Assembly: GCA_024282035.1 (NCBI GenBank)
Contig: JAMWZR010000001.1
Location: 248,001 to 312,000 of the forward strand
From: Nitrosomonas sp.
Lineage (GTDB): Bacteria > Pseudomonadota > Gammaproteobacteria > Burkholderiales > Nitrosomonadaceae
Length of the DNA: 64,000 nucleotides
Reading direction: 5' to 3'
A program made the translations under genes and the position numbers. Position 1 is the first letter of the stretch; each line of letters opens with the position of its first letter. Shown here one piece after another: positions 49,988 to 54,642 of this stretch. The notes under the pieces are model-generated. The model was not told the origin of the DNA and ran no database searches. It worked only from the letters and a program-made list of their open reading frames with translations.

Positions 49988-52900
49988 TTAATGTGGCTTA
50001 TTGCAAAATTTGCGGGTAAACGCGGTTGCGGAGATCGGTTTCGAAATGAGGTAACCTTGAATAATGTCGCATCCCAGTTCGCGTAGTGTCTCCAGTTGCT
50101 CTTGTGTTTCCACACCTTCAGCAACAACCGAAAAGCCCAGGGTTTTGCTCATGGCAATAATGGTTTGTGCAATTGCGCGATCCTGTCCTTGCTCAGTAAT
50201 TTCATCGACAAAGCTTCGATCAATTTTTAGTTCATCGATAGGATAACTTTTCAAACGTGCGAGTGATGAATAACCGGTCCCAAAATCATCGATTGAAATT
50301 TTAATGCCCATCTTTTTTAGCCGTACTAGGGTTTCCAGTATGGCCTGATTATCATCGGCCAGAGTACTCTCGGTAATCTCCATCATAATTTTCTGCGGAG
50401 GAAGTTGATAGATTTTTAACAGGCGCTCCATCATTTCAAATACGTTGCTGCGTCGGAATTGATCGATGGAAATATTGATCGATAAATGGGGAAGCGTATA
50501 ACCCTTTTGTAACCACCGGGAAAGTTGCGAGCACGCATTGTCTGCAACCCATTCTCCCAGTTTTCCAATGAGTCCGCATTTTTCCGCAATGGGGATAAAT
50601 TGATTTGGAAGTCTTGCTTCTTGTCCCTGATTCGGCCATCGGATTAGTGCCTCGACACCGATCAATTGACCGGTCGTTAAGTCGATTTGGGGTTGGTAGT
50701 GTAACGATAATTCATTTCTGTCCAGTGCTTTACGCAAACTATTTTCCAGACGCAATCGTTTATCGACTTGTTCCATCATGGCCTGGGTGAAAAACTGAAA
50801 TGCATTTTTCCCTTTTGCTTTGGCTTCATACATGGCTGTATCCGCGTGTTTCATCAGGATTTCGGCATCTTTGCTATCGTCCGGAAAAACAGCAATGCCG
50901 ACACTGGCACCGATATGAACCATTTGTTCACCAAGAAAGCAGGATCGACTGATTGCCGAACATAAACGTCTGGCAGCCATTTCTACTTCATTTACAGTGG
51001 TATTTTCAATTAATAAAGCGAACTCGTCTCCACCGAAGCGAGCTACCGTATCAACCGCTCGCACTAAACCACGCATCAATTGGGCTACATCTTTTAAAAG
51101 CTTATCGCCGGCGGCATGCCCTAATGAGTCATTGACGATTTTGAAATCATCCAGATCGATAAAAAGCACCGCAAAGAGATAGTCGCCTCGATCACCGCGG
51201 GCTATGGCCTGCTTGATGCGGTCCAAAAATAATAAACGGTTGGGTAACTCTGTTAACGAGTCATGCGTGGCCAGGAATTCGATACGCTGCTGGGATTCTT
51301 TAACAATCGTAATGTCACTTAAGATAGCGACATAGTTGCTGGTTTTCCCAGAATGGTCCTGGATTGCATTGACCGTGAGCCATTCCGGATAAGTATCGCC
51401 ACTCTTACGCCGACTAAGAATTTCTCCCTGCCACCATCCTTGTGTTTCGATATTGTTCCATATCGATTCAATAAACTTGTCGTCCTGCAGGCCGGTTGTC
51501 ATAAAGGACGGCGGTTTGCCGATGGCTTCTTCAGCGGAGAAACCGGTAATTTTTGTAAATGCTTCATTGACTGTCAGTACTCGTTTCTTTTGATCCGTGA
51601 CAACAATGCCTTCCGATGATCGGTCGAATACCTTCGCGGCGAGTCGTAGCTGACTTTCTGCCGCCACTCGGCTGCTGATGTCGGAGGATTGGGTACAGAC
51701 GCCATAGGGTAAATTGTCGGCGCCGATCAGTGGAAATCGAATAGATAGCAGATAAATTTCCTGATTATTGAATTGCAGGTGATCTTCGGTTTCTACAGGT
51801 TGTAATTTACGGATGACTTCGAGTTCTTTTACACGAAAATCATCCGCGATGGATTGCGATAGAAACTCGCTATCTGTTTTCCCTAATATATCTTTTGATT
51901 CGATATTGAATGTACTTTCGAATTGTTGATTAACGAATTCGTACCGACCAACTATATCCTTCAAGGCGATGATCGATGTCGAGTTATTCATGATCGATAA
52001 TAACTTTTCTCTGCTAGAGCTTATCTCATCTTCAATTGCGCGGCGCTCGGTGTCATCGACCAGCGTTATGATGGCCCCAGGTACACCACTTAAGGCTGTT
52101 TCATAAGGCGCGATATGCAGTAGATAATGGCGTTCCAGCGATGGGACTGCCGATTCGATTACTTTTCTCTGTTGTATCGCATCTTGAATTTGATCGCTGA
52201 AGTTTTTCATGCCGCTCGGCAATCTGAGACTGCCGAAATGATGACCTATTGAGGATAGCGTCATCAAAAAGAGGGTTGCAGCGGGTGCATTGAAGCGCAG
52301 AATTTTTAGTTGGTCATTAACGACTATGATTGGAAATCCAACACTGTTCTGTACGATTTCAAGATCATTGAGCGTTTCAGTCAGTTCGTTGGTTCTAATC
52401 TGTAATTCTTCATTGACAGTGGTTAATTCCTCGTTGGTCGATTGCAGTTCCTCGTTGGTGGCTTCCATCTCTTCATTGGATGATTGCAATTCTTCGTTGG
52501 CAGACTGCACTTCTTCATTGAGTGCCTGTAGTTCTTCGTTGGAAGTTTCTAGTTCTTCGATGACGGTCTGGAGTCTCTCACGCGTCATGATCAGCTCGTC
52601 TTCCAGTTCGCGGATATTTAGTTTTCTGTCGGCATCCAGTTCAGCTGCATGGTCTTTGGTCTGCTGAAAATCATCATTTTGAACAGAGTGCTCTTCAAAA
52701 CAGATTAAATAGTTCGCTGATGCAATGCCTTTCTCGGTTGGATGCACTGCAAGACGGATAGCTTTGGGGGAAGCGCCAATACGCATTTGGCGAGATCGGC
52801 CGATCGCTGAATCCATCGATTTTTCTGCTTTATGCTGCAGCAGTTGAAGGTCTGGACGAAGCTCCCGGCGGATCAGGTGCATCAGATTCATACTTGGTTT

Positions 52901-54040
52901 GCCTGCCGGAATGATCAAATATGCGCTGACTTCGCCGAAAATATGTTGAATATCCAGATTATCGTTTACTAGAATTGATGGAGGAATATATTTGCGGATG
53001 GCAAGTTCCAGCAATTTTTGCTCGGTATTGTTTTTTTTATTGGACGATAAGTTCGATTCCTGGTTGAGATGTGGCAGAGAAATCGAATTGATAGGTATTC
53101 TGTGAGTACTGGCGCGGCGTTTGTAGATGCGGTGGACTTTGTCGACGATATCGAACAGATTATCCTGTTGATAGACGCTTTCGGATTTACCGAGAAACAG
53201 ATAACCGCTTTCTACCAGACCAAAATGAAATGTTGCCAATACCTTGGCTTGCAGCTCTGGTTGTAAGTAAATCAGCACATTGCGGCAACTGATGAGATCA
53301 ATGCGCAAGAATGGTGGGTCAAGTACCAGATCCTGGCGGGCAAAAACCACCATATCCCTGATAGTGCGTGATATCTCATATCGATCATGCCGTAAAGTGA
53401 AATGCCGTTTTACCAGTTCTTGATCTATTTCAACCAGCGAGCCTTCGGTGTAAGAGCCTTTCCGGGCTATATTCATGGCGTTATGATCAATATCAGTGGC
53501 AAAGATCTGTATTTTGTAGCGAGGCAGATTGCTCCCCAGCGTTTCTGCCAGCAGGATGGCGATGCTGTATGCTTCTTCTCCGGTTGCGCAGGCCGGTACC
53601 CAGATTCTGATTTCATCGCCGGTTTGTTTCTTGCTCGTGATGGTTTTGATAATCGGCTTAATCTGTGCAAATGCTTCCTGGTCGCGGAAGAATGCTGTAA
53701 CGGAAATCAGAATATCTCTGCTCAACTGTTCCAGTTCGTCTGGTGTGTCTTCTGTAAACTTTAAGTAGTCATCGAAATTGATGAAGTGGTTGGCTGCCAT
53801 ACGGCGTTCGATTCGACGCCATAATGTGCCTTCCTTATAACCTCCAAAATCGATACGGGTCTTCTGTTTTACATTGATCAGTAGTCTTTTCAGTTGAGTG
53901 GCTATGGATTGGGGCTTTGTGAGCTCTACGTGCTGCGCTATCGTCGTGCGATTACGTACGATGTTGGTGATTTCCGATGCGATTTTCTCTGGCGACAAGA
54001 CCCAGTCCACACAACCGGAGTCAATGGCCGATTGAGGCAT
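49988..54040 (-). CDS. CheR-coiled coil-PAS-GGDEF-EAL protein (downstream part of a split gene)
   Basis: The 1350-residue open frame contains the distal CheB end, then a CheR methyltransferase (about residues 40-315, SAM motif ACATGEEAYS near 150-160), a repetitive coiled coil (about 473-551, heptads such as EELQSTNEEL), three PAS-like domains (about 552-915), a GGDEF domain (GGDEF near residue 1000 with an RxxD I-site, RAVD, five residues before it) and a C-terminal EAL domain (EAL near 1128; SINIS, MEITES, DDFGTGYSSLA, LKIDRS, AEGVET, IIQGYL). Both cyclase and phosphodiesterase motifs look intact. The gene was originally joined to the CheB domain at 54642 but is separated by a 77-bp duplication that shifts the frame. 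The ATG at 54040, after GGGG, might allow re-initiation. Confidence 0.85.
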   Translation of the reverse strand: MPQSAIDSGCVDWVLSPEKIASEITNIVRNRTTIAQHVELTKPQSIATQLKRLLINVKQKTRIDFGGYKEGTLWRRIERRMAANHFINFDDYLKFTEDTPDELEQLSRDILISVTAFFRDQEAFAQIKPIIKTITSKKQTGDEIRIWVPACATGEEAYSIAILLAETLGSNLPRYKIQIFATDIDHNAMNIARKGSYTEGSLVEIDQELVKRHFTLRHDRYEISRTIRDMVVFARQDLVLDPPFLRIDLISCRNVLIYLQPELQAKVLATFHFGLVESGYLFLGKSESVYQQDNLFDIVDKVHRIYKRRASTHRIPINSISLPHLNQESNLSSNKKNNTEQKLLELAIRKYIPPSILVNDNLDIQHIFGEVSAYLIIPAGKPSMNLMHLIRRELRPDLQLLQHKAEKSMDSAIGRSRQMRIGASPKAIRLAVHPTEKGIASANYLICFEEHSVQNDDFQQTKDHAAELDADRKLNIRELEDELIMTRERLQTVIEELETSNEELQALNEEVQSANEELQSSNEEMEATNEELQSTNEELTTVNEELQIRTNELTETLNDLEIVQNSVGFPIIVVNDQLKILRFNAPAATLFLMTLSSIGHHFGSLRLPSGMKNFSDQIQDAIQQRKVIESAVPSLERHYLLHIAPYETALSGVPGAIITLVDDTERRAIEDEISSSREKLLSIMNNSTSIIALKDIVGRYEFVNQQFESTFNIESKDILGKTDSEFLSQSIADDFRVKELEVIRKLQPVETEDHLQFNNQEIYLLSIRFPLIGADNLPYGVCTQSSDISSRVAAESQLRLAAKVFDRSSEGIVVTDQKKRVLTVNEAFTKITGFSAEEAIGKPPSFMTTGLQDDKFIESIWNNIETQGWWQGEILSRRKSGDTYPEWLTVNAIQDHSGKTSNYVAILSDITIVKESQQRIEFLATHDSLTELPNRLLFLDRIKQAIARGDRGDYLFAVLFIDLDDFKIVNDSLGHAAGDKLLKDVAQLMRGLVRAVDTVARFGGDEFALLIENTTVNEVEMAARRLCSAISRSCFLGEQMVHIGASVGIAVFPDDSKDAEILMKHADTAMYEAKAKGKNAFQFFTQAMMEQVDKRLRLENSLRKALDRNELSLHYQPQIDLTTGQLIGVEALIRWPNQGQEARLPNQFIPIAEKCGLIGKLGEWVADNACSQLSRWLQKGYTLPHLSINISIDQFRRSNVFEMMERLLKIYQLPPQKIMMEITESTLADDNQAILETLVRLKKMGIKISIDDFGTGYSSLARLKSYPIDELKIDRSFVDEITEQGQDRAIAQTIIAMSKTLGFSVVAEGVETQEQLETLRELGCDIIQGYLISKPISATAFTRKFCNKPH

Positions 54041-54642
54041 CCCCGTATATTTTGCGGTACTGGGTTCTTGTACAAATGTGAATCCGCCATTCCGGAGTCA
54101 ATGGCCGATTGAGGCATCCCCGTATATTTTGCGGTACTGGGTTCTTGTACAAATGTGAATCCGCCATTTGCCTTGATTTCTCTCAATCCCACCGTGCCAT
54201 CGGAGCCAGTGCCTGAGAGTATGATGCCGATTGCATCTTCGCCTTTTTCGTTTGCAAGTGATGTTAGAAAGACATTGGCGGAAGGTTTGGGCAATGTTTC
54301 TCGTTTCGTTTCCATCAGGATGAAGCGACCATCTTTAAAAATGGTATTGCGGCTTGCCGGGGCGATATGAATGACATCCACTTGGGGTATCATTTGGTCC
54401 TCAATTTCACAGACCGCCATGGAAGTTTCTCTACCCAGTAGTTGCACCAGCAGGCTTTTGTGTGTTGGAGACAAATGCTGGATGACGACGTAGGACAATC
54501 CGAGGTTATTGGGCAATGCGGCAATTAACGCTGATAAAGCTTCCAGACCGCCAGCGGATGAGCCGATGCCGACGATATAGTAACGGGATTGCGAGGGGAG
54601 TGCTGTTGGAACGCTGTCATCTTGAGGTACATTTTTAGCCAT
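53938..54642 (-). CDS. CheB-type methylesterase domain (upstream part of a split gene), truncated
   Basis: The first 190 or so residues are a CheB catalytic domain without receiver: GIGSSAGGLEAL near residue 26 (active Ser), QHLSPTHKS near 60 (active His) and IILSGTGSDGTVG near 150 (active Asp). Reading then passes through the first copy of the 77-bp repeat and is shifted in the second copy, giving a 45-residue tail of unrelated sequence before a stop. Fused CheB-CheR proteins without REC domains are known in PAS/histidine kinase hybrids, where they appear to act in signalling rather than on classical chemoreceptors. This part as it stands would be a shortened CheB domain. Confidence 0.8.
   Translation of the reverse strand: MAKNVPQDDSVPTALPSQSRYYIVGIGSSAGGLEALSALIAALPNNLGLSYVVIQHLSPTHKSLLVQLLGRETSMAVCEIEDQMIPQVDVIHIAPASRNTIFKDGRFILMETKRETLPKPSANVFLTSLANEKGEDAIGIILSGTGSDGTVGLREIKANGGFTFVQEPSTAKYTGMPQSAIDSGMADSHLYKNPVPQNIRGCLNRPLTPVVWTGSCRQRKSHRKSPTSYVIARR
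54015..54168 (-). repeat. Exact 77-bp tandem duplication inside the CheB-CheR fusion gene
   Basis: Two identical adjacent copies, 54015-54091 and 54092-54168. As 77 is not a multiple of three, the second copy shifts the frame. Removing one copy gives a continuous frame from 54642 to 49988 of 1526 codons. No microhomology is visible at the edges. Confidence 0.95.

Follow-up and report, generated by a model that had tools for sequence, protein, structure and literature searches.

The exact 77-bp tandem at 54015-54168 of the window (the whole stretch of 64,000 nucleotides analysed) is, with a probability that we put at roughly 97%, the seam of a short-read de Bruijn graph assembler working at k = 77, and not a real feature. 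It is no chance string match, but it reflects the assembly process and not the chromosome. Its two copies are identical and adjoining, its length equals the overlap carried by contig ends, tandems of the same period recur at other sites of the assembly, and relatives possess a single copy inside an intact frame. The repeat is almost certainly an artefact, because 77 is exactly the overlap at the joints of the assembly, and as an artefact it leaves the gene in which it lies probably whole and without a switch. The chromosome itself most likely has just one copy. As far as can be read from the sequence, the organism very probably carries the gene intact, as a single CheB-CheR-PAS-GGDEF-EAL hybrid of 1526 codons. 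The features at the site are as follows.

54015..54091, no strand: copy 1 of the 77-bp repeat, its length equal to the contig-end overlap of the assembly
54092..54168, no strand: copy 2 of the 77-bp repeat, present as a single copy in L157 and L023
49988..54642, minus strand: whole CheB-CheR-PAS-GGDEF-EAL gene, 1526 codons after subtracting 77 bp
53938..54642, minus strand: apparent 234-aa ORF, CheB methylesterase part followed by an out-of-frame tail of about 50 residues past the seam
49988..54040, minus strand: apparent 1350-aa ORF, end of CheB, CheR, PAS domains, GGDEF and EAL

The two adjoining copies show 100% identity at a spacing of 77, on which TRF and the repeat finder agree, and in this respect the description given by the sequence-only reading was accurate. 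Microhomology is absent from the edges of the repeat: the base before it (54014) is A, against a T as the last base of the unit, and the base after it (54169) is T, against a C as the first. The same reading had regarded the exactness of the copies and the lack of microhomology as hints of an artefact, and rightly so; the decisive clue, k = 77, needed the rest of the genome. In the assembly, the tandem is located in contig C79 (C79:302015-302168), and a 363-bp stretch around the site has one match in the genome. A genomic repeat was considered as the cause of a graph branch at this site and rejected, as the 77-mer is present in the examined sequence only as the two tandem copies.

Two minus-strand frames, the 234-aa CheB frame and the 1350-aa CheR-to-EAL frame, overlap at the repeat, and both have an ATG start. 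From the first ORF, Pfam recovers only CheB_methylest, at profile positions 1-165 of 174; from the second, it recovers CheR_N, CheR, several PAS domains, GGDEF and EAL. The ORFs and the Pfam domains thus confirm the earlier claim that CheB and the CheR-to-EAL part lie in different frames. The gene spans 4655 bp, and subtraction of one copy gives 4578 bp, or 1526 codons including the stop, exactly as had been calculated before. Since 77 cannot be divided by 3, a seam of this kind puts any gene that it interrupts out of frame.

A comparison with orthologues, which had been proposed along with the first description of the repeat, shows the single-copy frame to be intact in one relative (L157, 1525 aa) and open in another (L023, 1574 aa). 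The first of them, on contig CADEDO010000040.1 of a Nitrosomonas MAG, is the sole locus returned by a scan of genome contigs. It possesses one copy of the segment and a single open frame of 1526 codons (1525 aa and the stop), which is the length expected for the window gene after removal of 77 bp. The alignment with the first window ORF covers residues 1-187 of this protein at 94%, with identity continuing to residue 184, and that with the second window ORF covers residues 176-1525 at 91%; the ATG of the second ORF is consequently an internal CheB methionine (residue 176). The domain set of the hybrid is found by Pfam in one frame in L157, and in two frames flanking the seam in the window as given. 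The order CheB, CheR_N, CheR, PAS, GGDEF and EAL in L157 is that of CheB-CheR fusions with PAS, GGDEF and EAL; the window copy differs from such fusions merely in appearing split, owing to the seam.

The 1350-aa protein was further used as a query against 61 genomes, the window's own included. Some match was found in 60 of the 61, mostly to the GGDEF-EAL part only among the matches listed. In genome G032 (locus L023), residues 1-1348 are matched at 80%, and there is one copy at the site. More distant loci were found in G009 (L025, 39%), with an open frame of 1504 aa without stop, and in G006 (L026, 36%), with one of 1547 aa, likewise without stop. The match in G003 (80%) is interrupted by a contig end before the site. 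Of the relatives, L157 and L023 were aligned across the site, and a second copy was present in neither of the two. A search for exact tandems with a period of 15-400 returned none in the L157, L023, L025 and L026 loci.

These alignments bear directly on the reading of the locus as a stable split into two genes, each with its own start. Both ORFs do begin with ATG, in agreement with it. However, the relatives retain one frame, the first ORF ends its CheB match 9 positions short of the 174-position profile and then runs into its out-of-frame tail, and the second ORF starts within CheB. We consider the probability of such a split to be negligible.

A further repeat was seen within the gene. An imperfect 21-bp tandem array at 52425-52542 (5.7 copies, 70% matches) encodes the heptad-like NEELQS/NEELTT linker that connects CheR with PAS. 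L157 has this stretch conserved as well, and it is thus an ordinary repeated linker.

The meaning of the number 77 became apparent from the rest of the assembly, a draft genome of 97 contigs and 2,930,771 bases. Four masked contigs, comprising 9,696 bases of N, were left out of the contig-end and tandem counts, so that the contig-end comparison covered the 93 unmasked contigs of the 97, with 186 ends and 17,205 pairs of ends. Among the starts of the first 20 contigs, the first 77 bases of C9 and C15 are exactly identical, and the sequences diverge thereafter. At least 18 exact terminal bases are common to 34 of the 17,205 end pairs, and in 30 of these 34 the number is exactly 77. Overlaps of 77 bases account for 21 of the 24 end-to-start pairs and nine of the ten same-start pairs, the remaining four overlaps being 71, 62, 36 and 33 bases long. 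Altogether, 57 of the 186 contig ends take part in some 77-base overlap. In a de Bruijn graph, adjacent pieces share exactly k bases.

The same length stands out among maximal exact repeats of at least 60 bp. After removal of duplicates, the examined sequence contains 46 of length 77, compared with six of length 76 and one of length 78. Contig ends are touched by 43 of the 46, and the other three are the tandems in the window, in C50 and in C52, so that the exact repeats of 77 bp in the examined sequence fall into just two classes, contig-end overlaps and tandems. Such a 77-base spike is what a de Bruijn graph built with k = 77 characteristically leaves behind. Smaller humps were also observed in the repeat lengths of the examined stretches, at 71 bp (13 repeats) and 75 bp (12 repeats).

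Exact tandems were then sought in stretches amounting to 1,915,424 of the 2,930,771 bases, of which 1,905,728 unmasked bases were scanned with periods from 10 to 1000. The scan returned 14 rows. Ten of them have a period of 10-30, with three describing one place; the tandems with a period above 30 in these 1,905,728 bases number four, and all four have period 77. All four sit at breaks of open frames, and each of the four 77-mers occurs in the examined sequence only in the two copies of its own tandem. The three outside the window, all from the exact tandem scan, are listed below.

C50:3910-4063 (L066:3910-4063): 77-period tandem
C52:62753-62906 (L140:3043-3196): 77-period tandem
C73:5176-5332 (L089:5176-5332): 77-period tandem with 3 extra matching bases, tallied as 80 among the repeats

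The C50 tandem lies in the gene of a large protein, with an open frame of 769 aa. The longer part of this protein has 11 other matches: seven are near end-to-end and 71-80% identical, with open frames of 851-918 aa, whereas G013 supplies the remaining four, which are partial matches and have open frames of 140-664 aa. The large protein itself is present in four of the 31 genomes searched, the window's own included, and in the window's genome it has four copies (C4, C15, C50 and C52), the other three being 71-79% identical to that of C50. The C52 tandem lies in a gene that, from a reading of its translation, is putatively transposase- or integrase-like; a full-length intact copy of it was not found in the same genome. 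The C73 tandem is in the gene of a repeat-rich protein. The tandems in C50, C52 and C73 are probably the same kind of assembly seam. For one odd length in four unlike genes a technical cause is immediate, and we can conceive of no biological one.

Recurrence and length together weigh against a genuine 77-bp tandem duplication that arose recently in the sequenced strain and that, with no regulatory role, inactivated the gene or split it. Identical, adjoining copies are what such an event would leave, and the one-copy relatives fit a recent event equally well. Against this, the length is the word length of the assembly, seen in 30 of the 34 contig-end overlaps, and three further exact 77-period tandems exist in other genes. 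Moreover, in a graph with k = 77 a true exact 77-bp tandem would form a loop, which an assembler would tend to collapse and not to write out. We consider a duplication of this kind very unlikely.

The sequence-only reading had favoured a revertible switch created by a very recent duplication, and this part of it is not supported in view of the contig-end overlaps, the three additional 77-period tandems and the one-copy relatives. Its fallback, an assembly artefact, is supported by the same overlaps, the recurrence and the relatives. The repeat does resemble phase variation by tandem slippage or duplication, in that exact units of a length indivisible by 3 are located inside a gene. It differs in that one period is found in unlike genes, that the aligned relatives have a single copy, and that the length is an assembly parameter. 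A slippage switch uncoupling the CheB part from the CheR and c-di-GMP part has in its favour just the indivisibility of 77 by 3 and the general knowledge that tandem repeats can in principle revert. All of the seam evidence speaks against it, as do the single copy in both aligned relatives, the 77-period tandems in three other, unlike genes in which we see no common function, and the start of the second ORF at an internal CheB methionine; its likelihood is close to nil. It is likewise exceedingly improbable that the source population truly carries the duplication and that this toggles the gene between the full-length hybrid and separate CheB and CheR-to-EAL products.

The assembly seam, by comparison, resembles the k-overlaps of SPAdes-type assemblers: an exact, ungapped repeat, equal in length to the contig-end overlap and recurring at other loci. 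Such overlaps are usually located at contig ends (43 of 46 here), whereas the window repeat lies inside a contig, which indicates that two pieces were joined without trimming. We propose that neighbouring graph pieces A-V and V-B, where V is the shared 77-mer, would have been joined by scaffolding or path merging with the shared word left untrimmed, giving A-V-V-B. We infer both the program and the step behind the seam; the former we take to be SPAdes, and 77 is among the usual SPAdes word lengths. Under this mechanism, reads would be expected to show one copy, and the cell would make one intact CheB-CheR-PAS-GGDEF-EAL hybrid protein. Tandem seams of length k are not mentioned in the literature titles and abstract openings listed by our searches; a description of the artefact may exist elsewhere.

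The 77-bp tandem has no biological importance. Its value is that of a practical warning: an exact tandem of the assembler's word length k (77 in this case) calls for a comparison with the contig-end overlaps before it is interpreted as a mutation, a pseudogene or a switch. In this assembly alone, four such tandems were found in the part examined, each at the break of an open frame. The terminal overlaps also denote possible connections between contigs. The 21 end-to-start pairs with an overlap of exactly 77 bases are candidates for contigs that adjoin each other in the genome but were not joined by the assembler; examples of 77-base overlaps are those between the right end of C79 and the right end of C55, and between the left end of C79 and the right end of C85.
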